64,000 nucleotides of DNA from Streptomyces sp. HUAS MG91 (GTDB lineage: Bacteria > Actinomycetota > Actinomycetes > Streptomycetales > Streptomycetaceae), in assembly GCF_040529335.1 (NCBI RefSeq), contig NZ_CP159535.1:100851-164850 (forward strand), read 5' to 3'. How positions within the stretch are numbered: position 1 is the first letter of the stretch; every line of letters starts with the position of its first letter. The position numbers were made by a program, and so were the translations under genes. Below are positions 45,868 through 61,466 of the stretch, one piece after another. A model generated the notes under the pieces. The model was given only the letters and a program-made list of their open reading frames with translations. It ran no database searches and was not told where the DNA came from.

Positions 45868-46244
45868 CGGGAGGCGCCCTGTCGGCCCCGGGCTGAGAGG
45901 GCGTCAACCGGCCCGCCCCGCACACTTTTTGACGCGAAACCTTCCGTGCGGCGAGGTGAAAGCGCGAAGGCCCGCCGGTGACGTCGGGGCGACGGCGGCA
46001 CGCCACGTGGCCCCTCACTTCGGCATTCACGCGCCCGGGTCCGGCCGGGGGCCGGGACGGCCGCGCACCCTCCCACCGATCCTCGACCCAATCGGGTACC
46101 CAATTTGCCTCCGGCTAACAGAAAAAAACCAGTCGACTGGTATTCTCTAGCTGCTTCGCGCTGCACTTGGGGCCTCGTTGCTCGCCATTTGTTCTGCTCA
46201 GGACGCGTTTTCTTCAGATCGACGTCTCAGCCAGGGGGTTCAAG
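45868..46244. promoter_or_regulatory. Promoter region of the afsA homologue
   Basis: 377 bp without a convincing gene. The right part becomes AT-richer and contains the ARE-like palindrome at 46128-46141, with TATTCT (46141-46146) as a possible -10 element at its edge. Confidence 0.5.
46128..46141. promoter_or_regulatory. ARE-like palindromic operator upstream of afsA homologue
   Basis: ACCAGTCGACTGGT is a perfect 14-bp palindrome flanked by AAAA and ATT. This gives a near-palindrome of about 20 bp that matches the look of gamma-butyrolactone receptor binding sites. It is 104 bp upstream of the GTG start, overlapping a possible -10 box, so receptor binding should repress signal synthesis. 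Confidence 0.65.
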
Positions 46245-47207
46245 GTGGGTGCTCTGATACAAACCGACCGTCCGAGTTGCCGGGTAGGTCTGGACCGCGA
46301 CACCGAACTCTTCGAACAGACCGTGCCGCGCAGCCTGGTGCACCGGGCCGCGGTCTCCGAGGTCCTCGTGACCGGGTGGCGGAGCACGGAAGGCACGTCG
46401 TACCGGCTCGGCGCCCAGTGGTCCCGAGGGCACGGCTACTACGGGGCCGTCGCCGACACGTGGCACGACCCGATGCTCTTCGCTGAATCGATTCGCCAGT
46501 CGTGCCTGCTGCTCGCCCACGAGGCCCTGCACGTCCCCATGACGCACCAGTTCCTCACCACGCGCACCTCCTTCCAGGTGGACGAGGCCGGAGTCCGGCT
46601 GTCGCGCCCCGGCCGGCCCGCCCACGTCGTCCTCGACATGAGCCTGGCCGAGGTCAAACTCCGCGCGGGCAACGTCAGCTCCTACGGATACGACGTCGTC
46701 GCCCTCCGCGACGGCGAGCGCGTGGGCGTGGGCCACCTGAAGGGCCAGTGCGTCTCCCCGGCCGTCTACGAACGGTTGCGCGGCGACCGGGTCGGAGCGC
46801 GCGCCTCGCGCCCCGCGGTCCAGTCCGTCGATCCCCGGCTCGTCGGCAGGGACTGCGAGTTCGACGTCGTGCTCGGCACCTCCGTGGCCGACGGAGTGCT
46901 GCCGCTGCGCATCGATCCGGAGCACCCGGTCCTGTTCGACCACCCGGTCGACCACGTCTCCGGCATGGTCTTGATGGAAGCCGCACGGCAGATGGCGCTG
47001 CTGGCCCTGCGGGCCCCTCAGGCGCTCCTGGTCGCCTGCGAGGCGAACTTCCGGCGCTACGTCGAGTTCCACGTCCCGTGCCTGGTGACGGCCGACGCCC
47101 CCGAGCGCGACTCCGCGGGCCGCAGCTGGCTCACCATCCACTTCCACCAGAGCGGCACCGAGGTCGGCTCCTGCCGGGTCGCCCTGGTCACCGGCACGGA
47201 GAACTGA
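46245..47207 (+). CDS. AfsA/ScbA-family gamma-butyrolactone synthase
   Basis: 320 residues from GTG 46245, with AGGGGG six bases upstream. Two A-factor repeat (hotdog-like) units are visible. The first is around PRSLVHRAAVSEVLVTGW with WSRGHGYYGAVAD. The second is around VLFDHPVDHVSGMVLMEAARQMAL, the family signature. AfsA-type enzymes condense a beta-ketoacyl-ACP with dihydroxyacetone phosphate as the first committed step of gamma-butyrolactone signals. Neighbouring reductases and a TetR receptor complete a signalling set. The exact signal (butyrolactone, butenolide or furan) cannot be told from sequence. Confidence 0.95.
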   Translation: MGALIQTDRPSCRVGLDRDTELFEQTVPRSLVHRAAVSEVLVTGWRSTEGTSYRLGAQWSRGHGYYGAVADTWHDPMLFAESIRQSCLLLAHEALHVPMTHQFLTTRTSFQVDEAGVRLSRPGRPAHVVLDMSLAEVKLRAGNVSSYGYDVVALRDGERVGVGHLKGQCVSPAVYERLRGDRVGARASRPAVQSVDPRLVGRDCEFDVVLGTSVADGVLPLRIDPEHPVLFDHPVDHVSGMVLMEAARQMALLALRAPQALLVACEANFRRYVEFHVPCLVTADAPERDSAGRSWLTIHFHQSGTEVGSCRVALVTGTEN

Positions 47208-47214
47208 GCCGCAC

Positions 47215-48186
47215 GTGACCACGGTGACCACCGCGACCGCCCCGGTCGGCACGGACACGGTTCTTGTCGCGGGAGGCACAGGCTTCATCGGACGCGCCGT
47301 CGTCCGCGAGCTCCAAGCCCGTACCGGCGCCGGTGTGCGGGTGCTGTCCTCCCGCGGCGGGACAACCCCTCCCGCGGGCTCCCCCGTCCGGCACGTCCGC
47401 GCCGACCTGACCCGCCGGGACAGCCTGCGGGGAGCCTGCGACGGCGTCACGACCCTGGTGCACACCGCCTCGTACGTCGGACGGGACGCCGAGCGCTGCA
47501 CGGCCGTCAACCACGACGGCACCCTGGCCCTGCTCGACGAGGCGCGACGGGCCGGAGTCGCCCGCGTCGTCCATGTCAGCACCGCCTCGGTGTACGGCAG
47601 CGGACCCCACCGCGGGGCACGCGAGGAGGACCTGCCCCTGCGGCCCGAGTCCGCGGCGAGCGCCTCCCGGATGCGGGCCGAGCAGGCGGTCCTCGACGCG
47701 GGCGGAGCCGTGCTGCGGCCGCACCTCGTCCACGGCGAGGGAGACAGATGGGTCGTGCCGGCCATCGACCGGCTGCTGCGGAGCGTCCCGGCCTGGCCGG
47801 CGGACTGCGACCCGCACATCTCGATGATCGCGGTCCGCGACCTGGCCCGCTGCGTGGTCTCCCTGGCCCTCGACCCGGGAGCGGCGCACGGACCGGAGAT
47901 CTTCCACGCGGCGGACCCGCGGCCGGTGCCCATGAGCCGGCTCAAGTCGGCACTGCACCGCACCCTCGGCACGCCCCTGCCGTCGGTCACGATCTCCCGC
48001 GACGAGCACCGGGCGCGGATCCGCCGCGCCCTGCCCGCGCTCTCCGACCACCAGTACGCCCTGCTCACCGAAGACCACTGGTACGACGCGGACAAGCTGT
48101 GGGCCCGGACCGGACAGCACCCGGGCCCCGGTCTCGAATCGCGCCTGGCCGAGTGCCGCGACTGGTACCTGCGGTACGGGAGTTGA
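47215..48186 (+). CDS. NAD-dependent epimerase/dehydratase family reductase
   Basis: 323 residues, extended SDR type: VLVAGGTGFIGRAVV at the N-terminus, HVSTASVYG, and a substituted YxxxK region. It begins 7 bp after the AfsA homologue with a GTG and is clearly co-transcribed. Similar extended SDRs accompany AfsA homologues in several Streptomyces butyrolactone loci and are thought to reduce or epimerise the signal. It ends just before a strong hairpin. Confidence 0.85.
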   Translation: MTTVTTATAPVGTDTVLVAGGTGFIGRAVVRELQARTGAGVRVLSSRGGTTPPAGSPVRHVRADLTRRDSLRGACDGVTTLVHTASYVGRDAERCTAVNHDGTLALLDEARRAGVARVVHVSTASVYGSGPHRGAREEDLPLRPESAASASRMRAEQAVLDAGGAVLRPHLVHGEGDRWVVPAIDRLLRSVPAWPADCDPHISMIAVRDLARCVVSLALDPGAAHGPEIFHAADPRPVPMSRLKSALHRTLGTPLPSVTISRDEHRARIRRALPALSDHQYALLTEDHWYDADKLWARTGQHPGPGLESRLAECRDWYLRYGS

Positions 48187-48193
48187 CGGCCCC

Positions 48194-48225
48194 GGCCGCG
48201 CGGAGCTCCCGGACTCCGCGCGGCC
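48194..48225 (+). terminator. Terminator of the afsA-epimerase transcript
   Basis: A perfect 12-bp stem (48194-48205 with 48214-48225) and an 8-base loop, immediately after the epimerase stop at 48186. Confidence 0.8.
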
Positions 48226-48369
48226 CCCCGGGCGCGCTCCGCCCGCGCCCAGCCGTCCCTCCAGCCGCCCTGAGTAGCCTCCCGAGCGTTTGAGAGCCTG
48301 TACCGCACCGCGCGTCCGCCGGCCCGCCCGCTCGTCGTCGCGGACCAGCACCGACAGGAGCCGACGCCT

Positions 48370-49269
48370 ATGACCGTGGAAACCACCACCCCCGGCGCGA
48401 CAGCGGCACCTCACGGACGAAGTCGGCGCGTGGAAGGGGAGCCGAGCCGGTACGCGGACCCCACGCCCTGCCGCGCGCCCCGGGGAAGGTGAGCCATGGA
48501 GCACAGCGGCATCGGCACGGCGACGACGTCCAGGGGGCCGGTGCACGCGGGCTGCGGAACCGCGACGGAGGCCAACGCCCGGTACCGGCGACTGATCGCG
48601 AACGGCGCGACCTGGCTGTCGGTCACCTTCGACCTGCCCACACGGCTCGGCCACGACAGCGACGACCCGATCGCCTCCGGTGAGGTCGGCAGGGACGGCG
48701 TCGCGATCGACTCGATCGACGACATGCGCGTCCTGTTCGGCGGCATCCCGCTCGGCAGCGTCTCCACCTCGATGACCGTCGACGCCCCGGCCGCGCCGCT
48801 GCTGGTCCTCTACCACCTGGCGGCGGAGGAACAAGGCGTGACCGCCGACCGGTTGAGCGGCGCGCTCCGCAACGGCGGGACCGGCGACCACTCCCTGGCG
48901 GCCGCGCCCGTCTTCCCGCCCCGCCCGTCGGTGCGGCTGACCGCGGACGTCCTCGCCTACTGCAGGGCCGAACTTCCGCGCTGGAGCACAGCAGCGCCCC
49001 CCGGCCCCGACGACGCCCAGGACCGGCCCCACGGGACGCCCCGCGCACCACTGCACCCCGCGCCCTGCGCCGCGACCCGACAGACCGAACGCATCGCCAA
49101 ACTCCGCGCCTGGCGATGCGGGGAACGCGTCGGCGACACCCTGACGGCACTGCGCGCGACGGCGGCCGGCGTGGACAACGTTCTCTACCCGATGAAGAAC
49201 GCCCTGGCCGCCGGCGCCACCGTCGGCGAGGTCTGCACAGCACTCCGCGAGGTGTGGGGCGGCGGATGA
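48370..49269 (+). pseudogene. Decayed methylmalonyl-CoA mutase-type large subunit
   Basis: One continuous frame from ATG 48370, interrupted by a TGA at 48490-48492. The part before the stop (GEPSRYADPTPCRAPRGR) aligns loosely with the N-terminal GEPGxYPxTRG segment of acyl-CoA mutases. After it, GTATEANARYRRL, FDLPTRLGHDSDDP, GVAIDSIDDMRVLF and VSTSMTVDAPAAPLL are clear mutase sequence. The body of the barrel is then missing, and the frame resumes with the C-terminal segment ERIAKLRAWR...EVCTALREVWG. At roughly 300 codons against the usual 520-560 it cannot form a complete barrel. An intact ancestor might have supplied mutase products to the neighbouring pathways. Confidence 0.8.
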
Positions 49270-49353
49270 CGCACGGGGTGCGGCCGGGGGCGGGGCGCTC
49301 AGCGGTTCACCACGCCACTGGGGCTGTGCGGTCGGGCGAACGGATGCGCAGAG

Positions 49354-49650
49354 TCAGCGGACCGCGGGCCCTGCCGCATCCGCGAGCGGCCGCGTCCGTT
49401 CGGAGCCGGCCGCGATCTGCCGCGTGATGAACGCGTCGATGGCACGCACCGAGCGCAGTTCGTCCGCGTCCGGGATCCATCCGTCGAGGTCGACGGCGAA
49501 GTGGTCGCAGATCCAGGCGACGAGCTGCATGACACCCATGCTGTCGAGCACACCGTGGGCCGGCAGATCCTGATCCGGCTCCACCGTGCCCGCCGACGTC
49601 CCGCTGATCTGCGTGGCCAAGAACTCTTCGATCGCCTGGGAGTGACGCAT
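49354..49650 (-). CDS. Discrete acyl carrier protein
   Basis: 98 residues from ATG 49650, preceded by AGGAGT. The phosphopantetheine motif is GVLDSMGVMQLV with Ser37, and the rest has the four-helix carrier pattern (FLATQI...DQDLPAHG...LVAWICDHFAVDL). It is divergent from the repeat-peptide operon, 220 bp away, and isolated from other fatty-acid or polyketide genes. It may carry an acyl or aminoacyl group for that operon or for the signal-synthesis genes. No direct partner is evident. Confidence 0.85.
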   Translation of the reverse strand: MRHSQAIEEFLATQISGTSAGTVEPDQDLPAHGVLDSMGVMQLVAWICDHFAVDLDGWIPDADELRSVRAIDAFITRQIAAGSERTRPLADAAGPAVR

Positions 49651-49870: not shown

Positions 49871-50110
49871 ATGTCCGAGAACGAAATGATAAACCGTGCG
49901 GCGGACGGCTGGGACGGCGAGATCGCGGCGAGCGTCTCCGCCGACTGGGACGGGGAGATCGCGGCCAACGTCTCCGCCGACTGGGACGGCGAGATCGCCG
50001 CGAACGTCTCCGCCGACTGGGACGGTGAGGCCCTCCTGGACGAGGACCTCCTGAACGCCCAGAGGAATCTCGAGGCCGCCGCGAACGATGACGGGCTCAT
50101 CGCGGAATGA
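49871..50110 (+). CDS. Tandem-repeat precursor peptide (putative RiPP precursor)
   Basis: 79 residues from ATG 49871 with AGGAAGGG upstream. After a 13-residue head, Trp14, Trp26, Trp38 and Trp50 occur at exactly 12-residue intervals. Each is followed by Asp-Gly-Glu and, in three repeats, by IAA(S/N)VSAD. The matching DNA (about 49902-50040) consists of 36-bp tandem repeats. An acidic, Leu/Ala-rich tail (LLDEDLLNAQRNLEAAA) follows. It is small, has no known domain and heads an operon with a radical SAM enzyme, oxygenases, a possible protease and an exporter. That is the profile of a multi-core RiPP precursor or peptide scaffold. Here the helical tail may act as a C-terminal recognition segment, or the head as a short leader. 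Confidence 0.8.
   Translation: MSENEMINRAADGWDGEIAASVSADWDGEIAANVSADWDGEIAANVSADWDGEALLDEDLLNAQRNLEAAANDDGLIAE
49905..50040 (+). repeat. 36-bp tandem repeats encoding the Trp-Asp-Gly-Glu core units
   Basis: Four units in frame, with Trp codons starting at 49910, 49946, 49982 and 50018. Units 2 and 3 are nearly identical; units 1 and 4 diverge at the ends. The exact 36-bp period indicates expansion by slippage or recombination within the precursor gene. Confidence 0.85.
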
Positions 50111-50922
50111 CCCGACGCTGGGGCGCGGGAGAGCCCCGCGTTCCAGCCTCCCGCGAAGACGACCCATATCTTTCCTCGTATCTGAACACCCGGGATATCG
50201 GCGGCATTCGGACTTCTCCGGGAGAGGAGACCGCGCCGGGAACGGTGTTCCGGACCGCCGCCATGGGACACGCGCTTCCCGACCTGGTTCTGAATCTGGC
50301 CCGGGAAATCGAGCAGGGAAGTTCCGCGAACACTCGGGAAAAGGTTCATTTCCTCGATCTGAGATCTCCGTCGGAAGTGAACGAAAAGCCCGCGCCGCGT
50401 GACACCGTGACGGTCCATCGGATACCGCTGCGCGACCCCGACGCCCGACACGTTCCCCCGCCGGCCCGCGGCCCCGAGCACTTCGCCCAGCAGTACGTAC
50501 GCATGCTGCCGGACGCCGGACGCGCGGTGGCAACGCTCCTGGACATCGTGGCCGCGGACACCGGACCGGTCGTCGTCGGCTGCCGGCTCGGCAAGGACCG
50601 CACCGGTCTGGTGATCCTGCTCCTGCTGCGGCTGCTCGGCGTGCCGGACCACGACAACCGCGAGGAGTTCGGCCGCACCGGCCGGGCCCTCGCCCGACGC
50701 CGCGACTGGCTCGACGGCTACGCCGCACGACGGGGCGAGACACCCGCCGAAGTGCTGCGCCGCTGCGCCCTCCCACCGGGCGTCCCCCAGCACGTGCTCG
50801 ACGTCCTGCGCCTGCGAGCCGCACGGGACACCCCGGCACCCGCCCTCTGGCCGGCCGTCGACGCGGCCCTGCTGAGACGGGCCCGCGCCCGCCTCACGCG
50901 ACCGAAAGGTGAACTTGCATGA
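50107..50922 (+). CDS. Tyrosine/dual-specificity phosphatase-like protein
   Basis: 271 residues. The P-loop CRLGKDRTG (Cys159 to Arg165) matches the CX5R motif of bacterial tyrosine phosphatases of the SidA/PTP3 type, which also have the N-terminal YLNTRDIGG segment seen here. The ATG overlaps the precursor stop. It could dephosphorylate a phosphorylated pathway intermediate or peptide residue, which fits the kinase and HAD phosphatase later in the operon. A signalling role is the alternative. Confidence 0.82.
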   Translation: MTRRWGAGEPRVPASREDDPYLSSYLNTRDIGGIRTSPGEETAPGTVFRTAAMGHALPDLVLNLAREIEQGSSANTREKVHFLDLRSPSEVNEKPAPRDTVTVHRIPLRDPDARHVPPPARGPEHFAQQYVRMLPDAGRAVATLLDIVAADTGPVVVGCRLGKDRTGLVILLLLRLLGVPDHDNREEFGRTGRALARRRDWLDGYAARRGETPAEVLRRCALPPGVPQHVLDVLRLRAARDTPAPALWPAVDAALLRRARARLTRPKGELA

Positions 50923-52241
50923 AGGTCCTGGTCCTGTGGCCGCCGCACGTCCCCAGCTACTTCAACGCGGGCCACCACATCAGCACGTTCCTGACGGCCA
51001 ACTACCTGCGCACCCTGCCCGAGGTCGACCAGGTCCGCGCCGTGGACGCGGGCGCCCTGAACTACACCTGGAAAGAGATCGGCGACCTGCTCTACCAGGA
51101 GCGGGCGGACGTACTGGCCGTCATGAACGACTTCGACAACGTCGACGACCTGCCCCGTCTGCTGACCTACGTGCGCACCCTGTCCCCGGACACCAAGGTG
51201 GTCACCGCCGGACGGCTGAGCAGCCAGGCACCCCGCTCCTTCGACGGCTACGACCTGGACGCGGTGGTCGTCGGCGGCGACCCCGAGGCCGGCGTCGCCG
51301 CGTACGTCCGCCACGTCGCCGGCACCGGGCAGGCGCCCCTGCCCGGCGTCGTCCTGCGCGGCCAGGACGTGAGCGACGCGGCCCCGGGCACCTTCCTCCC
51401 CGCGTCCGAGTGGGTCCTGCCCGCCGTCGAGGAGATCCCGTACCAGGCCTACGAGCGCATGTACCAGCGGGACCAGAACAAGTTCTGCGGCATCCCGCAG
51501 CGCCGCGAACTGGTCGTCCCCGCATCCCGGGGCTGCCCGGTGAACTGCTCGTTCTGCGAGGTCCCCACCTTCCAGGGGCTGCGCGACCGCAGGCTCACCG
51601 TCGAACGGACCATCGACTACATCAGGGACAGCTTCACGGCGCACCCCTTCGAGTACGTGGCGTTCTACGCGCCCACCTTCACGCTCGACCGCAAGTGGAC
51701 CGAGCGGCTGTGCCGCGAACTCATCGCGCTGGGCAGCCCGTACCCGTGGAAGTGCGCCACGACCGTCGCCCACCTCAGCGAGCCCCTCCTGGAAGCGATG
51801 GCCGCCTCCGGCTGCGTACGCGTCAGCGTGGGCGTGGAAACCCTCGACCCGTCGGGGCACCCGGCACTGCCCCGCCTCAAACGCATGGAGCAGCAGCGCT
51901 ACGAAGAGCTCGCCGCGGCCTGCACCCGGCTCGGCGTCGAGCTGAACTGCTTCGTCATCATGGGGCTGCCCGGAACGACCCCCGAGGGCGCCGAGAACAC
52001 CGTACGCGCCATCCGCGAGGCCTCCGGCCGGGTCCGGCCGACGGTGTACTCGTCGATGGACCGGCTGCGCGCCGCGACCTGCCCCGCCGAGGCATCGGCC
52101 TTCAACCGGCAGCTGCTGCACCCGGACGAGGCACCGGACCGCGAGACGGCCCAACGCCTGTACGGCCTCGTCTACGGCCGCGAGGACTGGGTCACCCCGG
52201 TGACCGAGCGCGTCCCGCAGCGACTGGAGCAGGCGCGATGA
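50919..52241 (+). CDS. Radical SAM protein with N-terminal B12-binding-like domain
   Basis: 440 residues. An N-terminal Rossmann-like domain (MKVLVLWPPHVP..., VVVGGDPE) resembles cobalamin-binding domains of class B radical SAM enzymes. It is followed by the cluster motif CPVNCSFC with Cys206, Cys210 and Cys213 (CxxxCxxC), then GVETLD and a GLPGTTPEG barrel segment. Class B enzymes methylate unreactive carbons or rearrange substrates. Its place two genes after a Trp-repeat peptide suggests it modifies that peptide, perhaps at Trp or the adjacent residues. The classical DxHxxG cobalamin motif is not seen, as in many of this class. Coupled by ATGA to both neighbours. Confidence 0.92.
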   Translation: MKVLVLWPPHVPSYFNAGHHISTFLTANYLRTLPEVDQVRAVDAGALNYTWKEIGDLLYQERADVLAVMNDFDNVDDLPRLLTYVRTLSPDTKVVTAGRLSSQAPRSFDGYDLDAVVVGGDPEAGVAAYVRHVAGTGQAPLPGVVLRGQDVSDAAPGTFLPASEWVLPAVEEIPYQAYERMYQRDQNKFCGIPQRRELVVPASRGCPVNCSFCEVPTFQGLRDRRLTVERTIDYIRDSFTAHPFEYVAFYAPTFTLDRKWTERLCRELIALGSPYPWKCATTVAHLSEPLLEAMAASGCVRVSVGVETLDPSGHPALPRLKRMEQQRYEELAAACTRLGVELNCFVIMGLPGTTPEGAENTVRAIREASGRVRPTVYSSMDRLRAATCPAEASAFNRQLLHPDEAPDRETAQRLYGLVYGREDWVTPVTERVPQRLEQAR

Positions 52242-53329
52242 CCGTCCTCAGCGAGACGCGGTGGGGGCTGCCCGACACCGCGGTCCGCGACCGGCGCGCG
52301 GCCGACCCGCGCGTGAACCTCAGCTCCAACGAACTCCACCACCCTCAAGTCGAGTCACTCGCACGCGAGATGGTGGACGGATTCGACCCCGCCGTGCTCC
52401 GCGCCTACCCGGTGCAGGAGCCCGCCGCCGCGGCGGCGGGCGCACTGCTCGGCCTCCCCGCGCACCACCTGCTGCTCTCCGCGGGCTCGGACGCGGTGAT
52501 CCGGCTCCTGCTGACCTCGCTGCGCGGCGCCTTCCCGGGCGGCCTCGTGCTCCAGGAGCCCAACTACGAGGCGTGGACGCAGGCGGTGGACGCGCCGCTG
52601 TGGCCCCTGCGCAAGGTGACCTCGACGGACGGCACCGCCACGACGTCCGCCGAGGCCATGCTGGACGCGGCAGCCGACGCCGAGCCCGCACTCGTCGTGG
52701 TCTCCTGGCCGAACGGCCCCGCCGGCTACACACCCCGGCTCGACCACATCGCCGAGCTGTCGGCCGTGTGCCGCAGCCGGGGCCACCTGCTCATCGTCGA
52801 CGGCTGCTACGCCGGATTCGCCGGCAGCCCCCTGAAGGTGGCCGAACTCGCCGACGACCACTGCCTGGTCCTGCTGAGCTGGTCGAAGATGTTCGGCTTC
52901 GCCGGCGGCCGCCTCGCCGTCGCCTGCGGGGGCCCCGACCTCGTGCACCGGCTGCGCGCCGCCCGGCAGGAGGACCACGTCTCAGCCCTGGCGCTGCACG
53001 CCCTGACCCGCACCGGCCAGGTCTACGACCGCTTCACGCACGTGTGGCAGGACATCACCGCCACCCGCGAGGCGATGCGGTCACGGCTCACCGCACTCGG
53101 CCACCACGTGCCGGAATCCGGCGGCAACTTCCTGCACGTACCACGGCCGACGGCCGCTTCCGCCGCCGAGCTGACGGCCCGCCTGTCGCACAGCGGCTAC
53201 CGCGTACGCGACATGGGCCTCACCAGCGGACTCCACCACCACGTGCGGTTCACCGTCGCCCACGGGCCGGCCGGCGAGCAGTTCCTGGACTGCCTGGTGC
53301 GGCACCTCGCGGAGGTCGGCGGAGCATGA
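52238..53329 (+). CDS. HisC-like PLP-dependent aminotransferase
   Basis: 363 residues, fold type I. NLSSNELHHP at the N-terminus recalls histidinol-phosphate aminotransferase (LxxNENP), and the PLP lysine is Lys217 in SWSKMFGFAGGRLA. HisC-like enzymes transaminate or decarboxylate phosphorylated or free amino acids. It overlaps both the radical SAM gene and the protease-like gene. It may process an amino acid released from the repeat peptide or act on a phosphorylated intermediate made with the kinase in the same operon. Confidence 0.88.
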   Translation: MTVLSETRWGLPDTAVRDRRAADPRVNLSSNELHHPQVESLAREMVDGFDPAVLRAYPVQEPAAAAAGALLGLPAHHLLLSAGSDAVIRLLLTSLRGAFPGGLVLQEPNYEAWTQAVDAPLWPLRKVTSTDGTATTSAEAMLDAAADAEPALVVVSWPNGPAGYTPRLDHIAELSAVCRSRGHLLIVDGCYAGFAGSPLKVAELADDHCLVLLSWSKMFGFAGGRLAVACGGPDLVHRLRAARQEDHVSALALHALTRTGQVYDRFTHVWQDITATREAMRSRLTALGHHVPESGGNFLHVPRPTAASAAELTARLSHSGYRVRDMGLTSGLHHHVRFTVAHGPAGEQFLDCLVRHLAEVGGA

Positions 53330-55149
53330 GCGCCATCAGCACACCCCCCGCCGCGCCGCGCACCCGCCACCACTGGCGGACCGTGGCCGACTGGTACGGC
53401 CTCGACCCCGCGCCGACCCCGCCCGCCGACCCGTGGGCACTGCCGACGCTCACCCCCACATCGGCGGAGCCCGGCAGCCCGCCCCGCGAACTCAACGCGC
53501 TCTACCGCACGTTGCAGGCGCACGACGACGGAGACCTCGGACTCGGCGCGGAAGGAGTCCGGTTCGTCCGCGCCAAGGGCCGGCGCGTCCTCGACGTCGA
53601 CTGGAAGCACGACACGCTGCTCATCGACACCCTGCACGCCACCGTCCTCCTCGACGGACAGCACCTCACACCCGACCGCGCCGCCCTGCGCCGCGTGCTG
53701 ACCGACGGCGTGCGCCGCCTCGTCGTCGTCGCCCACGGCGACGGCGGCCACCTCGACCTCGGCCCCCTCGTCGCCTGCGGCCTGTACACCCCCGTCGAAC
53801 GGGACCTGGCGTCCGGCGCACCCCTCGAACGCGGCTGCCGGGCGGGCGTCTCCTGCAAGCGGGCACGCGACCACGACGCCGTACTGCTGTGCCGCGACAT
53901 CAAAGCGGGCAGCGTCGTCCTCGTCGCCTGCAAGGCAGGCTCGATCATCGACCCCGCCTTCCCCTCCAGCACCAACGTGGTGGTCGGTTTCCTCGACGGA
54001 TACGCCGCCACGGTCGTGGCACCGCCCGGCAACGCCTCCGCGTCCCCCGTCATCACCCACGGCCTGTACGCGATGGCCGGCCACACCCCGCTGACCCGCG
54101 TGCGCTCCTACCTCGACGACGTGTCGGGACGCGGCCGCGTCCACTACCGGATCCTCGGCACACCCGGCCCCGCCGACACCGCCCCGGGCGACGACACCCC
54201 GCACCACGGCGGCGGCGTGACCGTGCACCACGTCGACCCGCCCGAGGACGGCGAACGGCACTTCGCCCTGCGCGTCTCGGACGGGACCGCCCTGCGCCCC
54301 GGCGTCGACAGCGCCTACGGGCGACGACACCTCGTCCTGCCCGAGGGCCTCGACCCGGACGCGGTGCGCCTCGTACCCGACTGGACCCCGCGCGCCGCGG
54401 ACCTGGACAACCACCGCACCGACCTGGAACGGATGCGACTGATGTACGGGCAGCTGACGGGCGCGCTCGTCTCCTCGCCCGCCCGACGGCGCGCCCTCGA
54501 ACTCGGCGAACGCCTGGCCGGCCTGCGCCACCGCCACGAGGCCTCCCGCCTGACCGCCGTACGCCGCCTTGCGGGCGGAGCCGCCCACGGCCTCGTCACC
54601 CACCCCGGCGGACAGGAGGCCACCCGCCAACTCCTCGACGCCTGGGGCGAAGGCGTCGCCGAGACCCTCGAACTGCTCCTCGTCCAGCAGGACCCGGCCG
54701 ACCTGCTCACCTCGGCCATGTGGCCGCAGGACGAGCGGCTCGGCCAGGAGGGCTGCGAAGTGTGCGGCCGACGCATGCGCGTCCTCACCTACCGCGACCT
54801 GCTCGGCAGCACCGGCTGCCTGCGCCACGACTGCCCGCACTGCGGCAGCCGCCGCGTCACCCCGGACCGGACCGACTCCTGCGTCACCTTCCGTCTCGTA
54901 CCGGGACCCGACCCGTCCCTGGAGGTCAACCCGGAGACGGAGCACGGCAGTTGCCACGTCGTGTGGCAGGCCACGTTCAAAAACAGCGCCACCGCCTTCC
55001 CCGTCCGCCGCACCCGCCTCGGCAACACCCCCGAGCGGCTGCCGCTCCCCGTCCCCGACGACCTCACCGACCAACTGCACACGGTCAAGGCCGTCGTGGT
55101 CAGCGGCAGCCGGATGTGGTCCTGGCGCACCCGATGGAGGGCCCGCTGA
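53326..55149 (+). CDS. Unrecognised protein with a possible CHAT/caspase-like protease domain and a zinc ribbon
   Basis: 607 residues. Residues about 95-240 show a hydrophobic strand ending in His (RRLVVVAHGDGGHLDLG, His137) and, about 65 residues later, a strand ending in Cys (VVLVACKAG, Cys202). This His-Gly...Ala-Cys layout is seen in clan CD proteases (CHAT, caspase, gingipain). Near the C-terminus Cys477, Cys480, Cys503 and Cys506 form a four-Cys zinc ribbon. The middle is alpha-helical without a recognised family. If it is a protease it could cut the repeat peptide into units. The assignment rests on pattern only. It overlaps both neighbouring genes (ATGA and TGATG). Confidence 0.55.
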   Translation: MSAISTPPAAPRTRHHWRTVADWYGLDPAPTPPADPWALPTLTPTSAEPGSPPRELNALYRTLQAHDDGDLGLGAEGVRFVRAKGRRVLDVDWKHDTLLIDTLHATVLLDGQHLTPDRAALRRVLTDGVRRLVVVAHGDGGHLDLGPLVACGLYTPVERDLASGAPLERGCRAGVSCKRARDHDAVLLCRDIKAGSVVLVACKAGSIIDPAFPSSTNVVVGFLDGYAATVVAPPGNASASPVITHGLYAMAGHTPLTRVRSYLDDVSGRGRVHYRILGTPGPADTAPGDDTPHHGGGVTVHHVDPPEDGERHFALRVSDGTALRPGVDSAYGRRHLVLPEGLDPDAVRLVPDWTPRAADLDNHRTDLERMRLMYGQLTGALVSSPARRRALELGERLAGLRHRHEASRLTAVRRLAGGAAHGLVTHPGGQEATRQLLDAWGEGVAETLELLLVQQDPADLLTSAMWPQDERLGQEGCEVCGRRMRVLTYRDLLGSTGCLRHDCPHCGSRRVTPDRTDSCVTFRLVPGPDPSLEVNPETEHGSCHVVWQATFKNSATAFPVRRTRLGNTPERLPLPVPDDLTDQLHTVKAVVVSGSRMWSWRTRWRAR

Positions 55150-55847
55150 TGCACCACCCCACCACCGCCCCGGCCCGGCCCCGCCCCGAACCCGCAACAC
55201 GGCACGCCCACCCCTACCCGCACGTCGTCTTCGGCCCCGGCACCCTCCTCGGCGCCGACGACACGGCCCGCCTCACCGCGACCTTCCCGGCACACCTGTT
55301 GCGCACCGCCCACCACCGCGACGGCGGCGACAAGACGTACACCGTCAACGCGCTCACCCTCCACCGCCACGGCACCCCGGCTCCCGAACTGAACGACCTC
55401 GACCCCGTCTGGCACACCGTGGTGGCCCGCCTGGCCGCCCCGGAACACGGCCACCACATGCTGCGGCTCCTCGGCCTGCCCACGGCACCCCTCGACATCG
55501 AGGTGCGCCTCACCGAGTACCGGCGCGGCGGCTGGATGTCCCGCCACACCGACCGCCCCGACAAGGCGTTCTCGCAGAACATCTACCTCTGCCCCGGCTG
55601 GCAGCGGCACTGGGGCGGCGGCCTCGGCCTCTACACGACCAGCAGCGCCCCCGACCCCGCCACGACGTTCCAGCCCGGCGACGGCAACTCCCTCGCCTTC
55701 GCCCGCTCCGAGAACTCCTGGCACGAGGTGTTCCCCGTCGACCCCCGCGCCCGGGCACCACGCCGCGCACTCCTCCTCCACGCCCACTGGGCCCGCACCG
55801 AGGACAACACCGCGCACCACCCCGCGGAGGCACCATGCGGCTCGTAG
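55149..55847 (+). CDS. 2-oxoglutarate/Fe(II)-dependent oxygenase (prolyl-hydroxylase type), copy 1
   Basis: 232 residues. The iron-binding facial triad is visible as RHTD (His-x-Asp) and the distal His in NSWHEVFPV. GGGLGLY lies between them, and an Arg-rich strand (RAPRRALLLHAHW) follows for 2-oxoglutarate binding. Such enzymes hydroxylate amino-acid side chains in peptides or free form. It shares a DKTY segment and overall layout with the second copy at 58591-59214, so the operon holds two diverged paralogues. It overlaps the zinc-ribbon gene (TGATG) and the kinase gene. Confidence 0.88.
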   Translation: MHHPTTAPARPRPEPATRHAHPYPHVVFGPGTLLGADDTARLTATFPAHLLRTAHHRDGGDKTYTVNALTLHRHGTPAPELNDLDPVWHTVVARLAAPEHGHHMLRLLGLPTAPLDIEVRLTEYRRGGWMSRHTDRPDKAFSQNIYLCPGWQRHWGGGLGLYTTSSAPDPATTFQPGDGNSLAFARSENSWHEVFPVDPRARAPRRALLLHAHWARTEDNTAHHPAEAPCGS

Positions 55848-56377
55848 TCGCCGGACCCCCCGGAGCCGGCAAGACCCGCCTGGCCACCGCACTGGCAGCC
55901 CGCACCACCACACCCCTGTACGACCTCGACGACCTCTACTGGGGCAGCGGCTGGACCCGCCCCACCCCCGAGACGTGGCGCACCCGCCTGACCGAGGTCA
56001 CCGGCCGGGACAGCTGGATCATCGCCGGGAACTTCCAGCCGACCATGGACATCCGGCTCCGCCGCGCCACCCACGTGATCGTCGTCGACCCCGGCCCGGC
56101 CGTCTGCCTGGCACGCCTCGCCCGCCGCACCCTCGGCATCTACCTCGGCCGCACCGAGGAACTGCCCCGCCACCTGCGCGCCGAGGGCCGCAGACAGGCC
56201 GGACGCGGCCTCACCCGCATCGCCCGCACCGCGGCCCGCTACCGCCACGTCGAACTGCCCCAGACCCACCGCCTCGCACACACGCACGGACTGCGGCCCC
56301 TGCACGTCGGCCGCACCCCGGACCCGACCACCCTCCTCACCCACCTCAGCCTCGACAGGAGCACGCGATGCGCGTGA
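55835..56377 (+). CDS. P-loop kinase (adenylate-kinase/FlaR-like)
   Basis: 180 residues. The Walker A motif is AGPPGAGKT at the N-terminus, followed by LYDLDDLYWGSGW (substrate Asp pair) and WIIAGNF. This is the pattern of the small AAA/FlaR-like kinases often annotated as topology modulation proteins. It probably phosphorylates a small molecule. With two phosphatase-like proteins and a MurA-like enzyme in the operon, a phosphorylated intermediate in the pathway is likely. It overlaps the genes on both sides by 10-13 bp. Confidence 0.82.
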   Translation: MRLVVAGPPGAGKTRLATALAARTTTPLYDLDDLYWGSGWTRPTPETWRTRLTEVTGRDSWIIAGNFQPTMDIRLRRATHVIVVDPGPAVCLARLARRTLGIYLGRTEELPRHLRAEGRRQAGRGLTRIARTAARYRHVELPQTHRLAHTHGLRPLHVGRTPDPTTLLTHLSLDRSTRCA

Positions 56378-57150
56378 CCACGCCGGGAACCACAGCCGCC
56401 CCGCCCACCCCCGAAACCACGCCCCCGCAAGCTGTGGCCTTCGACTTCTTCGGCACCCTCGGCCACTGGGAACCCGGCACCGTCGGAAGCCCCGCCCAGG
56501 TCCTGTACGACGCCGCCCCCGACCGCGCCCGCATCGACACCGTCCACCTGGTCGACCTGGTCGAGGGCAAGAACGGCACCGTCCAGCGCGACACACCGGT
56601 CACCGCCGCGGCCTACGCACGCTGGGAGGAGGACAGCTGGCGCGCAGCCGCCCGCTACGCCCACGTACCGGTCACCCCGGCGCTCATCGAGGAACTGCGC
56701 ACCGTCCTCGACGCCCGCCGCCTCGAACTCTACGAGGACGTACGCCCCGCCCTGCGCACCCTGCACGAGCACCACATCCCGTGGGTGCTGTGCTCCAACG
56801 CCTCACCCGACGTCGAGGGCAAACTCCACACCCTCCTCGGCCCCGAACTGCGCCCCCGCGGCTGCGTCGTGTCCTGGCGCGTCGGCGCACGCAAACCGCA
56901 CCCGCGCATGTTCACCACCGTGCTCGACGAACTCGCCCCGCTCACCGCCGCCGAGACCCTGTTCATCGGCGACCGCTACGACTGCGACATCGCGGGCCCC
57001 CGCACCCACGGCTTCCGCACCACCCTCCTCGACCGCGACGGCCGCACCGCCCTCCGCGACACCGAACGCGCCGCGACCACCGTGTGGAGCGACCTGCGGC
57101 CCCTGACCGAACTCGTGCGCCACGCCTCCCCGACGCCCGCGACCCCCTGA
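56368..57150 (+). CDS. HAD-superfamily hydrolase
   Basis: 260 residues. HAD motif I is FDFFGTL, motif II is LCSNAS, motif III is the Lys in ARKPHPRMF, and motif IV is IGDRYDCDIAG. The cap region lies between residues about 45 and 120. HAD enzymes of this size are usually small-molecule phosphatases or dehalogenases. Its position after the kinase suggests it removes a phosphate later in the same pathway. The substrate is unknown. Confidence 0.88.
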   Translation: MRVTTPGTTAAPPTPETTPPQAVAFDFFGTLGHWEPGTVGSPAQVLYDAAPDRARIDTVHLVDLVEGKNGTVQRDTPVTAAAYARWEEDSWRAAARYAHVPVTPALIEELRTVLDARRLELYEDVRPALRTLHEHHIPWVLCSNASPDVEGKLHTLLGPELRPRGCVVSWRVGARKPHPRMFTTVLDELAPLTAAETLFIGDRYDCDIAGPRTHGFRTTLLDRDGRTALRDTERAATTVWSDLRPLTELVRHASPTPATP

Positions 57151-57176
57151 GAACTCTGCGAAAGGCGGAGAACACC

Positions 57177-58577
57177 GTGAGCATCAACGCCCCGACACTC
57201 GCCCCGCTCCAGTCACCGGCCCACCTCACGGCCCGCGGCGGCAACCCCGCACGCGGCCACGTGAACGTCTCCGGCTTCAAACACGTCATGGTGCTCGCCG
57301 TCGCCTACGCCGTCGGCTCCCGGCGACACACCGTCCTCACCAACGTGCCGGACATCCTGGAGACCCGCACCTACCTCGAACTGCTGCCCCAACTCGGCGT
57401 CCACACCTCACAGGCAGGCTCCAGCCTGGTCCTCGCCCCCGGCGACCTCCCCTCCACCGACGACGCGACCGGCTCCGCCACCGTGCTCCCGCCCGTCGCG
57501 GAGAACATCCACGGCAGCCTCTACCTCCTGCCCCCGCTGCTCGCCCGCCGGGGCCGCATCGGCTTCTCCGCGTTCGGCGGCTGCCCCATCGGCAGCGCCC
57601 ACGACCGCGGCGCCCGCCCCTGGCGGCACATCGTGCGCGTACTGGAACACTTCGGCGCCCGCTTCGACGCCACACGGCGCGAGCTGACCCTGCCCCCACA
57701 CGGCTACCGGGCCACCGAACTGGACCTCGGCCTGTTCGCCGACGACCAGACCCTGCTCACCGGAGCCGAATACTCGGGAGCCACCAAGGCCGCCGTCCTC
57801 GCCGCCGCGTTCGCCGACGGCACCACGGTGCTGCACCGCCCCTACCGCAAGGCCGAACTCGAGTCGCTGCTGCGCCTGCTGGAACAGGACGGCGTCCACG
57901 TCCGACGGACACCCGACCGCATCGAGATCACCCCGCGCCCGGAGCGCCGCCAGGACCTCCTCACCTACGACCTGCCGCCCGACCTGCTCGAAGTGGTCAC
58001 GTGGACCACCATCGCCGCCGTCACCGGCGGCCGCGTCCACCTCACCAACGTCACCACCGAGACACTGCGCGACGGACTCGGAGCGGAGTACGCACTGTGG
58101 CGCGCCGCCGGCCTGCGCTTCGCCGAGGACAGCGGCGGCGTCATCGTCGGCGCACCGCGCGACGGCCGCTTCGCCCCGCTGCCCGAGATCCGCGTCGACC
58201 CCACCACCATCTACAGCGACTCCCAGCCCCTGTTCACCGTCCTCGCCACCCAGTGCCCCGGCCCCACCCACATCGTCGACGGAGTGTGGCAGGGCCGCTA
58301 CAACCACCTCGACGGACTCGCGGCCCTCGGCGCCGACATCCGCCACACCCCCCAGGGCATCCTCGTCGGCACCTCCCCCCTGCACGCCCCCGCGAACGGA
58401 ACACAGGTCCACGCCACCGACCTGCGCTGCGCCGCCGCCCTCCTGGTGGCGGCCCTGGCCGCCGACGGCGGACCCGTGCACATCACGGGCACCCACCACC
58501 TCGACCGCGGCTACGACCACCTGCCGCGCAAACTCGCCGACTGCTTCGTCGACTCCCCGCTTCCGTCGGTTCTGTGA
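57177..58577 (+). CDS. MurA/EPSP-synthase-fold enolpyruvyl transferase-like protein
   Basis: 466 residues from GTG 57177. Sequence matches to UDP-GlcNAc enolpyruvyl transferase include an N-terminal GFKHVMVLAVA (Lys35; the partner Asn is His36) and the catalytic-loop GGCPIGSAHDRGARP with Cys136. Repeated inside-out barrel units follow, such as EYSGATKAAVLAAAFADGTTVL and QPLFTVLATQC. Housekeeping MurA is about 420 residues, so this is longer and diverged, with an insertion after the Cys loop. It probably transfers an enolpyruvyl group from phosphoenolpyruvate to a pathway intermediate. Homologues with altered chemistry are possible given the Asn-to-His change. Confidence 0.85.
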   Translation: MSINAPTLAPLQSPAHLTARGGNPARGHVNVSGFKHVMVLAVAYAVGSRRHTVLTNVPDILETRTYLELLPQLGVHTSQAGSSLVLAPGDLPSTDDATGSATVLPPVAENIHGSLYLLPPLLARRGRIGFSAFGGCPIGSAHDRGARPWRHIVRVLEHFGARFDATRRELTLPPHGYRATELDLGLFADDQTLLTGAEYSGATKAAVLAAAFADGTTVLHRPYRKAELESLLRLLEQDGVHVRRTPDRIEITPRPERRQDLLTYDLPPDLLEVVTWTTIAAVTGGRVHLTNVTTETLRDGLGAEYALWRAAGLRFAEDSGGVIVGAPRDGRFAPLPEIRVDPTTIYSDSQPLFTVLATQCPGPTHIVDGVWQGRYNHLDGLAALGADIRHTPQGILVGTSPLHAPANGTQVHATDLRCAAALLVAALAADGGPVHITGTHHLDRGYDHLPRKLADCFVDSPLPSVL

Positions 58578-58590
58578 CCCTGGAGCCCGC

Positions 58591-59214
58591 ATGCGACCCG
58601 ATCTTCAGCACCGCACCCCGACCGAGGCCCTGGCCGGCGCCCACCTGCGGACCCTGCCCTGGTCCCACGCCTGGCTGGACCAGGCACTCGACCCCCGCCT
58701 CGCCCAGGAGCTGTCCCGGTCCTTCGACGACATCCCCCTCACCCCCTGCGCACAGCACGAGGGCGACAAGACGTACCGCATGGCCACCCACCCCGTCACC
58801 GTCGACGACCCGCACTCCTGGCCCGGCGGACCGTGGCCCGAGCTCCTCGACACGCTGACCTCCCCCTCGTACCGGGAGCAGATGACGCGCCTGACCGGAA
58901 TCCGGCTGGCCGAGGCACGGCTGTCGGTGAACCTGTGGGAGTACGCCAGCGGAGACTGGCTCTCACCGCACGTCGACAAGGCCGAGAAGATCGTCACCCA
59001 GATCCTCTACCTGAGCGACGGCTGGACCCCGGCCGACGGCGGCGAACTGCTCATCCTCGACGGGCCCGACGCGGACCGACCCACGGCCGCCCACACACCG
59101 GTCCTCGGCAGCAGCGCCGTCCTCGTCAGGTCCGACGCCTCCTGGCACGCCGTCCGCAGCCCCGCCCCCACCGCCCCGCGCCGACGGTCCGTGACCGTCA
59201 CCTTCCTGCGGTGA
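58591..59214 (+). CDS. 2-oxoglutarate/Fe(II)-dependent oxygenase, copy 2
   Basis: 207 residues. The facial triad is SPHVDKAEK (His-x-Asp) and ASWHAV (distal His), with GGELLIL between and the Arg-containing PRRRSVTVTFLR at the end. The N-terminal half shares EGDKTYRM with GGDKTYTV of the first copy. It starts 13 bp after the MurA-like gene and its stop overlaps the MFS start (GTGA). It probably hydroxylates a peptide or amino-acid intermediate at a different position from copy 1. Confidence 0.88.
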   Translation: MRPDLQHRTPTEALAGAHLRTLPWSHAWLDQALDPRLAQELSRSFDDIPLTPCAQHEGDKTYRMATHPVTVDDPHSWPGGPWPELLDTLTSPSYREQMTRLTGIRLAEARLSVNLWEYASGDWLSPHVDKAEKIVTQILYLSDGWTPADGGELLILDGPDADRPTAAHTPVLGSSAVLVRSDASWHAVRSPAPTAPRRRSVTVTFLR

Positions 59215-60509
59215 GCGGCGTCCGGGACCACCCCGAGGCCCGCCCCGCCACCGGCCGGCACCGGAACGACTTCGCCCTGCTGTGGTGCAGCGAGACGATC
59301 TCCCTGTTCGGTACGCAGATCACGCTGGTGGCACTGCCCCTGACCGCCGTACTGACCCTCGACGCGTCCGGCCCCCAGATGGGCCTGATCACCGCCACCG
59401 GCTGGCTGCCGATCGTGCTGCTCGGCCTCGTCGCGGGCGCCTGGTCGGACCGTCACGACCAGCGCCGGACCATGCTGGCGTGCCACGTGGGCCGGGCCCT
59501 GCTGATCGGCGCGATCCCGCTGCTGTCCGCTCTCGGACTGCTCTCGGTCCCCGTCCTGCTCCTGCTCGCCTTCGCCCTGGGCTGCTTCACCGTCTTCTTC
59601 GACATCGCCTACCAGACGCTCGTCCCGCACACCGTCAGGCCCGACGGCCTCGCACGGGCCAACGGCCGCCTGGAGATGAGCCGTTCGTTCGCACAGCTCG
59701 TGGGACCGAGCACGGCGGGATTCCTGGTGGTGCAGTTCTCCCCGGCAGGCGCCCTCACCCTCGACGCCGCGTCCTACGCGGTCTCGGCCGCCTGCGTCCT
59801 CGGCATCACGGCACACCGCACCCCACCCGCGCCCCCCGCGGACAACGTCACCCCCGCCTCCCCCCGCCACCGGCTCCGCACCGACCTGGCCGAAGGACTG
59901 CGCTTCATCAAGAACCACCGCCCGGTCCAGCTCGTGATCGTCGCCGGAGCGGCCTCCAACCTCTTCACCGCGGGCCTGATGGCCCTTCAAGTCCTCTACG
60001 CGACCCGTGACCTGGACCTCTCGCCGCGGACCATCGGCATCTGCCTCGCCGCGGAAGGAGCCGCGGCCCTGATCGGATCGGCCCTCGTCACGCGCGTCAT
60101 CGCCCGCGGCGGAGAACCCCGCACCGTCCTCATCGGCCTGGCCGTCCTCACCGGCGGCGGCTTCGTCCTCGCGGCCACCACACGGGACTGGTCCTGGGCG
60201 GGCTTCGCGACGGCCCAGTTCGCGTTCGGCCTCAGCTCGCCCCTGATCAACGTCGCCCTGGTGACACTGCGCCAGCGCCTCACCCCCGACCACGTACTCG
60301 GCCGCGTCAACGCGGCGGCCCGCGTCGGCATCATGTCGAGCCTGCCCCTGGGCTCACTCCTCGTGGGCCTGCTGGCGGGCGCGATCGGAAACCAGGGCGC
60401 CCTCTGGCTCTGCGCACTCGGACTCGCCACGGTCCTCGCCACGACGGCGCTGCCGCTGCTGCGCGTACAGGCAACCAGAACCGACGCGCGGGCGGCCTCC
60501 GTCGGCTGA
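59211..60509 (+). CDS. MFS exporter
   Basis: 432 residues with about 12 hydrophobic segments. It starts at a GTG overlapping the preceding stop. Early segments ETISLFGTQITLVALPLTAV and the loop GAWSDRHDQRRTML (MFS motif A, GxxxDRxxRR) identify the MFS_3/enterobactin-exporter-like branch. As the last gene of the overlapped operon headed by the repeat peptide, it is the likely exporter of the mature product and could give self-immunity. A convergent terminator follows. Confidence 0.92.
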   Translation: MSGVRDHPEARPATGRHRNDFALLWCSETISLFGTQITLVALPLTAVLTLDASGPQMGLITATGWLPIVLLGLVAGAWSDRHDQRRTMLACHVGRALLIGAIPLLSALGLLSVPVLLLLAFALGCFTVFFDIAYQTLVPHTVRPDGLARANGRLEMSRSFAQLVGPSTAGFLVVQFSPAGALTLDAASYAVSAACVLGITAHRTPPAPPADNVTPASPRHRLRTDLAEGLRFIKNHRPVQLVIVAGAASNLFTAGLMALQVLYATRDLDLSPRTIGICLAAEGAAALIGSALVTRVIARGGEPRTVLIGLAVLTGGGFVLAATTRDWSWAGFATAQFAFGLSSPLINVALVTLRQRLTPDHVLGRVNAAARVGIMSSLPLGSLLVGLLAGAIGNQGALWLCALGLATVLATTALPLLRVQATRTDARAASVG

Positions 60510-60560: not shown

Positions 60561-61466
60561 TCAGCCGCGGCGGGCGGCAGCCTTGCGACGGGTCAGGAAC
60601 ACGGCACCGCCACCGACGAGGAGCAGCGCTGCGGCGCCGCCCACCAGCGCACCGGTGTTGTCCGCGCCGGTCTGGGCGAGATCGCCGTCATCGCCCTGCG
60701 CACCGGTGGCCGCCGGCGAGGACGACGAGGCGGCCGGGGTGGGCTCCCCGGTGGTCGCGTCGTCGGCCGGCGTGGACGGCGTCGCCGTGGGAGTGGGCGT
60801 CGCGGCGGGCGTGGACGCCTCGCCGCTCGGCGTGGTGTCGACGGGCGGAGTGCTCGGCACCTCGTCGTCCTTCGGGGGGTTGGCGATGCAGTCCGTACCG
60901 CCCTCGGACGGACCGTTCCAGGAGGCGATCAGCGCACTGCCGATCACCGGCTTGCCGGCCGCCGGGACGGGACCGTGGCCCTCGCCCTCCTTGCCGTCGA
61001 AGACGGTCGTACCGCGGTACAGGTCGAGCTGCGCGAAGCAGACGGCGTCCGGAACCGCGATCGACAGCGTCGCCGTCTGACCGTCCTGCACCGACACCGA
61101 CGCGTGGTCGACGAGCTGCTGCACACCGGAGCTGTTGAAGTCCGGGCCGTGCGCCAGGTACGAGGCGAGCGAGACGGTGCAGGTGCTGCCGTCGCCCTTG
61201 ACCTGAAGCGTCAGCTTGCCGTTCGCGTCGGGCGCTATGTCCCTCAGCCCCGGACGCGCCGTCCAGGACGAACCGTCCGCCGAGAACGCGCACTTGTCGG
61301 ACGGCGCCGCACTGCCCGGCCCGGTCTGCTGCGACTCGAAGGTGCTGTCGGTGTTCTTCCAGCCGTGACCGCCACCGTGGGCCGAGGCCACACCGGAAAC
61401 GGAGAGAGCCAGCAGCGCGGCGGATGCCGTGGTGCCGGCCAGGCGGATGGCGAGGCGCCGAGTCAT
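60561..61466 (-). CDS. Secreted, sortase-anchored surface protein
   Basis: 301 residues from ATG 61466, with AAGGGGG upstream. The N-terminal signal peptide ends at VASAHGGG. A beta-rich domain with two Cys pairs follows, then a Thr/Pro/Ser-rich wall spacer. The C-terminus has LAQTG (an LAxTG, class E sortase signal), a hydrophobic helix and RRKAAARRG. It is cell-wall anchored, of unknown function, and probably unrelated to the adjacent pathway since it is convergent with it. Confidence 0.9.
   Translation of the reverse strand: MTRRLAIRLAGTTASAALLALSVSGVASAHGGGHGWKNTDSTFESQQTGPGSAAPSDKCAFSADGSSWTARPGLRDIAPDANGKLTLQVKGDGSTCTVSLASYLAHGPDFNSSGVQQLVDHASVSVQDGQTATLSIAVPDAVCFAQLDLYRGTTVFDGKEGEGHGPVPAAGKPVIGSALIASWNGPSEGGTDCIANPPKDDEVPSTPPVDTTPSGEASTPAATPTPTATPSTPADDATTGEPTPAASSSSPAATGAQGDDGDLAQTGADNTGALVGGAAALLLVGGGAVFLTRRKAAARRG

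Follow-up and report, generated by a model that had tools for sequence, protein, structure and literature searches.

A probable aminohexuronic-acid nucleoside pathway encoded with a ribosomal repeat peptide in a Streptomyces operon

Why would a pathway for a small nucleoside include a ribosomally made peptide of tandem repeats? This is the central puzzle posed by an operon of Streptomyces sp. HUAS MG91 (8.6 Mb genome, two contigs), which occupies positions 49871-60509 of the window, meaning the whole stretch of 64,000 nucleotides analysed here (contig NZ_CP159535.1, positions 100,851 to 164,850). The operon consists of 11 genes on the plus strand, running from the repeat peptide to a predicted exporter. 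Eight of its ten junctions overlap (five by 4 nt, the others by 1, 13 and 10 nt) and the remaining two are gaps of only 26 and 13 nt, start codons having been picked by the analyst where several were possible. A first-pass annotation of the sequence had likewise described a single operon over this run, with ten genes rather than the eleven counted here, and had regarded it as an unmatched set of tailoring enzymes for a ribosomally synthesized and post-translationally modified peptide (RiPP), unlike any characterised pathway. For the enzymes this view does not hold, as the enolpyruvyl transferase (EPT), radical S-adenosylmethionine (SAM) enzyme, protein tyrosine phosphatase (PTP)-like phosphatase, kinase, two 2-oxoglutarate (2OG) oxygenases and aminotransferase match the nucleoside pathway of nikkomycin and polyoxin.

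Enzymes of an aminohexuronic-acid nucleoside pathway

According to parts of PMC3520715, polyoxins and nikkomycins consist of an aminohexuronic-acid (AHA) nucleoside linked by a peptide bond to a non-ribosomal peptidyl unit, the peptidyl units of polyoxin being carbamoylpolyoxamic and polyoximic acids. Passages of PMC5365060 describe how the nucleoside is made: NikO or PolA forms 3'-enolpyruvyl-UMP (3'-EUMP), the radical SAM enzyme PolH, with a CX3CX2C motif, cyclises it to octosyl acid phosphate, and PolJ takes off the phosphate, while chain shortening is proposed for the 2OG enzymes PolD and PolK and transamination to AHA for PolI, the homologue of NikK. The substrates of the enzymes named there are small nucleosides, not peptides. 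Cryptic phosphorylation and dephosphorylation are described for nikkomycin, polyoxin and malayamycin in passages of PMC10127198. The reaction classes of polyoxin are the same as those of the operon, whereas a ribosomal peptide, present here, is not mentioned in the relevant passages of PMC3520715 and PMC5365060.

The operon contains a counterpart of each of these enzymes. The EPT (57177-58577, +), corresponding to NikO/PolA, finds its best PDB match in NikO (4fqd; 173.3 bits, E 7e-50), and the best MurA reached 112.4 bits (E 2e-31 or worse) in the same PDB sequence search. Further comparisons were made with a cluster in another Streptomyces genome (L017 in G193) whose EPT scores 968 bits against NikO 4fqd; the Nik names used for this cluster rest on that match and on a gene order that we take to be that of nikkomycin nikA-G and nikI-O. 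The radical SAM enzyme (50919-52241, +; NikJ/PolH) matches NikJ of this cluster at 54% over 438 columns (residues 2-435 of 440, E 8e-158), and among four clusters 149 alignment columns are identical, with CX3CX2C conserved. Similarly, the pyridoxal phosphate (PLP)-type aminotransferase (52238-53329, +; NikK/PolI) matches NikK at 30% (E 1e-26) and the EPT its L017 counterpart at 34% (E 7e-38). Two 2OG-Fe(II) oxygenases are of the NikI/NikM or PolD/PolK type: oxygenase A (55149-55847, +), also recognised by Pfam, matches NikM at 37% over 124 columns (E 7e-20), and oxygenase B (58591-59214, +) matches NikM at 33% (E 9e-27) and NikI at 33% (E 6e-14).

The open reading frame (ORF) preceding nikO in L017 encodes a major facilitator superfamily (MFS) protein with a P-loop kinase fused C-terminally. 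In the operon these are separate genes, a P-loop kinase (55835-56377, +; the counterpart of the C-terminal half of NikN) and a predicted MFS exporter (59211-60509, +; Pfam MFS_1, 53% to the MFS protein of a Nocardia operon described below). All enzyme classes of nikI-nikO are thereby represented, namely NikI/NikM, NikJ, NikK, NikL, NikN and NikO, and the shared set (as seen in L017 and in L016) comprises the EPT, NikJ-type radical SAM enzyme, aminotransferase, PTP-like protein, two 2OG oxygenases, P-loop kinase and MFS protein. The operon differs from the nikkomycin genes in its repeat peptide, a 607-residue protein and a haloacid dehalogenase (HAD)-fold protein.

Pfam also backs the domain calls of the first-pass annotation for the PTP-like phosphatase (50107-50922, +; NikL/PolJ; Y_phosphatase3, 7e-29; active-site loop GCRLGKDRTG), the radical SAM, PLP and both 2OG enzymes, the MurA/EPSP fold and the MFS protein. 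Other calls survive in part. The radical SAM enzyme had been called B12-type, and its B12-binding Pfam match is weak (E 0.009) and below the cut-off; Pfam matches of the P-loop kinase all fall below threshold, and this assignment is supported by a 41% match over 99 columns (E 1e-10) to the free-standing kinase of another Streptomyces genome, G111. HAD phosphatases carry a motif I of the form DxDx(T/V), in which the second Asp is needed. The supposed HAD phosphatase (56368-57150, +) has the fold according to Pfam, but its motif I reads DFFGT, and DFFRT in Nocardia, so that it is not a canonical phosphatase; it has no BLAST counterpart in the L017 cluster.

Some correspondences weigh against the assignment to the AHA pathway. 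The similarity of the PTP-like phosphatase to NikL is weak, at 38% over just 73 active-site columns (E 8e-5), the kinase matches NikN weakly (phmmer, 3e-4), and the MFS protein has no BLAST match to NikN, its correspondence being by class only. Taken together, these sequence comparisons indicate that the operon almost certainly encodes the AHA nucleoside pathway of nikkomycin and polyoxin. Every enzyme class that AHA requires is present and, with no TruD, nothing in the operon would alter the base. By analogy, the pathway presumably starts from UMP. Judging by homology, the EPT would load phosphoenolpyruvate onto UMP to give 3'-EUMP, which the NikJ-like enzyme would cyclise to octosyl acid phosphate; the kinase, which in these pathways acts at the 2'-OH, would put on a temporary phosphate, both 2OG oxygenases would shorten the chain, the aminotransferase would yield an amino acid nucleoside resembling uracil polyoxin C, and the PTP-like phosphatase would take the phosphate off.

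Related clusters are rare in the genomes surveyed. NikJ-type enzymes at 52-54% occur in three other genomes among 392 of the same genus (G111, G181 and G193) and a relative at 33% in a fourth (G380; threshold E 1e-20 or better), while at E 1e-60 none was found in 266 members of the class beyond the genome itself. Neither the repeat pattern nor a close 607-residue protein was found in G111, G181 or G193. Beside the AHA-type cluster of G111 (L015 12999-15326, -), a short ORF, its final 20 codons encoding MKNHASILRPRLDKIKPQDR, directly precedes M16 peptidase and GNAT genes; this is possibly another peptide-linked cluster. Among 72,556 plasmid records, the radical SAM gene was present in two, both from Mesorhizobium, and the collection yielded no match to the peptide or to the 607-residue protein. 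The plasmid p_3 of Mesorhizobium huakuii, a root-nodule isolate (L081, 271420-296679), carries an AHA cluster that shares with the operon a radical SAM enzyme (49%), aminotransferase, PTP, kinase, two 2OG enzymes and an EPT, the last spread over two frames. It differs in having genes for a TruD pseudouridine synthase and a carbamoyltransferase, which suggest a malayamycin-like product.

The repeat peptide and the 607-residue protein

The first gene of the operon (49871-50110, +) encodes a peptide of 79 residues, MSENEMINRAADGWDGEIAASVSADWDGEIAANVSADWDGEIAANVSADWDGEALLDED..., with four sites of the form (A/D)(D/G)WDGE spaced 12 residues apart and Trp at residues 14, 26, 38 and 50. The first site is DGWDGE and the other three are ADWDGE; the peptide contains no Cys and ends in DGLIAE. 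Repeats 2 and 3 differ by three synonymous changes and no non-synonymous change. When 5.8 billion proteins were searched at E up to 10, with scoring of 80 candidates, two homologues besides its own came back (P0008 and P0009), from Streptomyces sp. SGAir0957 (67 residues, three W sites) and NPDC050085 (74 residues, four), each in a genome that also carries a close 607-residue protein. In NPDC050085 the peptide and the 607-residue protein have locus tags 24015 and 23995; if the tags step by five, three genes would lie between them, as here.

The peptide also co-occurs with the radical SAM and MurA-like genes in a second genus, at a locus of Nocardia asiatica (L007) that holds homologues of all eleven operon genes. 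There, a 30-residue ORF (9625-9717; MSEWSEVVEGGILADWDEINTGSVLADWDA) with a strong ribosome-binding site lies between the kinase and 607-residue protein genes. Trp residues stand at positions 14, 26, 38 and, where present, 50 in the three Streptomyces peptides and at 4, 16 and 28 in that of N. asiatica. In Streptomyces the first of these sites is DGWDGE. From Streptomyces to Nocardia, ADWD and the 12-residue period are kept and the rest of the unit has changed, the residue following ADWD being G, S, E or A across the four peptides. The pattern ADWD-x8-ADWD was observed once in the Nocardia locus, with 4e-7 occurrences expected by chance. As a DNA pattern it was found in one of the 392 same-genus genomes, which is this one, and its backward control matched in one other.

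In a conservation check set beforehand, the peptide was present and repetitive in four of the six genomes known to hold the close 607-residue protein. The period kept across two genera bears out the first-pass view that the repeat peptide is genuine and belongs to the operon, and a short precursor-like gene kept alongside enzymes in these four is a trait of RiPP systems. The same annotation was right that no known RiPP class fits, the operon being devoid of PEARL (LanB-like) and YcaO proteins. The peptide very probably has a working role in the pathway.

The protein of 607 residues (53326-55149, +), which has Cys-rich, zinc-ribbon and Ig-like parts, belongs to no named family: no Pfam family was found to E 1, no NCBIfam family to E 0.1 and no significant match among PDB sequences (best E 0.049 for the single sequence and 0.023 for a profile, in each case in the zinc ribbon). 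Models of its N-terminal domain are poor. Of the earlier description as a caspase-fold protease with a zinc ribbon, the zinc ribbon stands and the caspase fold is unproven. Six close relatives, its own entry included, are in the protein database, and a broader alignment returned the same six. Among 29 aligned members of the wider family, the zinc-ribbon residues Cys 477, 480, 503 and 506 are invariant, as are C151, C171, C177 and C202. Both H137 and C202 are present in all six members of the close clade, in which a caspase-like His/Cys pair is possible; such a pair would not be general in the family.

At E 1e-10 the wider family is present in 30 of the 392 same-genus genomes, the host genome itself having a second member; searched with the single 607-residue protein, these genomes yielded five additional matches, all weak (E 1e-6 to 8e-6). 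At E 1e-30, no match to the protein was found in 150 relatives beyond the host genome. A first scan of genome contigs was empty, and a second led to the N. asiatica locus. By eye, genes for non-ribosomal peptide synthetases (NRPS), ATP-grasp and MFS proteins are often near family members. The second member in the host genome (L069 9095-10948; C2:45094-46947) is flanked by MFS-like and ATP-grasp-like genes, with an NRPS-like gene near (names given by eye).

Scanning of 30 stretches around relatives showed three in which a distant relative lies directly beside a LysW-type carrier that ends in EEDWGE. Family models confirm the carrier (Pfam Zn_ribbon_LysW, 44.2 bits, cut-off 27), a [LysW]-aminoadipate-type kinase and an ArgC-type reductase in one of these stretches, L024; against TIGR01206 the same carrier scores 44.8, below the cut-off of 53.2. 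By eye, L025 and L026 have the same layout. The Cys-rich/zinc-ribbon proteins of about 600 residues adjoining these carriers (L024 6329-8523, L025 6429-8572, L026 7607-9801) share their clusters with genes for a kinase, a reductase, a split transketolase and DegT, family models having been applied to L024 only. These proteins are possibly the release or partner proteins of carrier-based pathways.

Possible links between peptide and nucleoside

In nikkomycin and polyoxin, AHA supplies the amine and an ATP-grasp ligase, NikS or PolG, joins the two halves; the neighbouring genes in L017, judged by eye, presumably encode the non-ribosomal amino-acid half. Family models found no ATP-grasp, adenylating, PEARL or YcaO protein among the 11 operon proteins. 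Neither a NikS/PolG-type ligase nor genes for an amino-acid moiety were found in the operon or its flanks (44401-49650 and, by eye, 60561-61466), the rest of the genome not having been searched. Because the operon is without an ATP-dependent amide ligase, transpeptidation by the 607-residue protein would be the simplest ligase-free route to an amide. The protein, through His137 and Cys202, would cut after the Asp of ADWD and transfer the resulting acyl group to the amine of the nucleoside, yielding one peptidyl nucleoside per repeat, to be exported by the MFS protein. Caspase-like cleavage shows a preference for the residue after Asp, and the residues found after ADWD would suit such a cut.

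AHA enzymes and a ribosomal peptide with no usual joining enzyme suggest an undescribed route to such compounds. We lean towards a covalent link between peptide and nucleoside at some stage, counting here also the temporary link of a carrier. Transpeptidation at ADWD by the 607-residue protein is a tentative proposal. No firmer is the picture of a RiPP-nucleoside hybrid that it would produce, in which the peptidyl half derives from tandem ADWD units, joining is achieved free of ATP by a Cys-rich zinc-ribbon transpeptidase of a new family, and this arrangement stands in for the ligase and the amino-acid pathway used for nikkomycin and polyoxin. Microcin C7 is a ribosomal peptide joined to a nucleotide via the adenylating enzyme MccB; an MccB-type enzyme is absent here, and linkage and nucleoside chemistry differ.

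Several observations weigh against the hybrid. In structural searches with the 607-residue protein, clan-CD peptidases come up only as weak matches tied with others, His137 is present in 22 of the 29 aligned members (the others having Asn in four, Leu in two and Phe in one), and the four invariant Cys could form a metal site instead of a protease. Distant relatives of the protein occur in peptide-free genomes, including G193, where the gene is at another locus. The repeat unit outside ADWD differs between Streptomyces and Nocardia, which is odd for a product moiety, and no peptide was found in NPDC050658 or S. monticola in a search limited to predicted proteins sharing exact 5-mers. The Nocardia gene order is partly different, with the PTP gene on the opposite strand, and a tree of seven radical SAM rows fails to settle the branching among clusters. 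Furthermore, a ligase may be encoded elsewhere in the genome: a condensation-adenylation-peptidyl carrier protein NRPS module is located some 25 kb upstream of the operon (21351-24554), and a phosphopantetheine-type carrier-protein gene identified by Pfam (49354-49650, -) is divergent from the peptide gene, with no match in the Nocardia locus.

An unlikely alternative, though the strongest of the rivals, is that the peptide serves as a multivalent LysW-like carrier. An intermediate would be attached to Asp or Glu side chains at its DWD(G)E sites during processing and then freed by the 607-residue protein, so that the product is free of peptide. DW(D)GE can be likened to the C-terminal EDWGE of LysW, whose last Glu bears the substrate according to a passage of PMC10433800, and the neighbourhoods of L024 (by models) and of L025 and L026 (by eye) place distant 607-residue relatives beside proteins of this type. 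The limitation of cross-genus conservation to ADWD would agree with a carrier, and pearlins and 2,6-diamino-5,7-dihydroxyheptanoic acid (DADH) made on carriers provide precedent in parts of PMC9303977. Such systems share with the operon a small ribosomal peptide or protein, release by a peptidase and, for LysW, a Trp-acid motif. They differ in having a loading ligase and one C-terminal site instead of repeats: the operon contains no LysX/ATP-grasp, PEARL or other loading enzyme, and the Cys-free peptide, therefore unable to form the globular zinc domain of LysW, does not end in EDWGE and gave no LysW match in family-model searches. The last Nocardia site, ADWDA, has no Glu, and LysW-type ends occur around relatives in just the three stretches above. 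Nikkomycin relies on the same set of enzymes and is not known to require a carrier at these stages.

Rather less probable is an accessory role, in which the peptide is not chemically joined to the nucleoside and is transcribed along with a complete AHA pathway as an enzyme scaffold, an activator or regulator, or a peptide product in its own right. The genomes with the nikkomycin clusters (G181, G193) and the G111 cluster are without the repeat pattern, so AHA enzymes manage without the peptide, and tandem W motifs can act as protein-binding modules. An accessory role sits poorly with the exact 12-residue period, with the retention of peptide and 607-residue protein together in two genera, and with the lack of any other peptidyl-moiety or ligase gene in the operon. 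The proposal of the first-pass annotation, that the peptide itself is the substrate of the radical SAM, 2OG and other enzymes, as in a new RiPP class, is very improbable. The operon does open with a precursor-like gene, RiPP pathways do include 2OG and radical SAM enzymes, and both 2OG enzymes weakly match the RiPP enzyme YhhC (5e-4 and 1.5e-3). This similarity is common to, and stronger in, NikI (1.5e-11) and NikM (1.8e-7), and is therefore no evidence for a RiPP; moreover, the radical SAM enzyme follows NikJ over almost its full length and the EPT is closest to NikO.

Neighbouring genes and significance

Upstream of the operon, the interval 44401-48186 holds genes for a ScbR-type regulator and a ScbA-type gamma-butyrolactone synthase (both above NCBIfam cut-offs), together with short-chain dehydrogenase/reductase and epimerase genes; it is likely an autoregulator system and might control the operon. 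A short ORF at 48496-49269 has a partial match to methylmalonyl-CoA mutase (best stretch, profile positions 53-200 of 512) and is perhaps a gene remnant. Further upstream, methyl-cycle genes (30187-38258, -) encode AdoHcyase, MetF, MetH and SAM synthetase, accompanied by a 327-residue protein with no NCBIfam match. They are located near polyketide synthase-like genes (2730-21193, by eye) and the NRPS module at 21351-24554.

Both nikkomycins and polyoxins inhibit chitin synthase and have been used or tested as antifungals. Of the pathway here, the nucleoside half is already known; the apparently new part is the combination of AHA enzymes with a ribosomal repeat peptide and the 607-residue protein. 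Genome mining for AHA-type clusters has been done before, as passages of PMC5365060 report, and searches of the open-licence literature turned up none that places a ribosomal peptide within an AHA nucleoside pathway. Were the peptidyl half gene-encoded, codon changes in a small gene could give analogues. The hybrid, if true, would combine the logics of RiPP and nucleoside biosynthesis in one natural-product pathway, and would provide a first role for an unnamed protein family present in 30 of 392 genomes of the genus.

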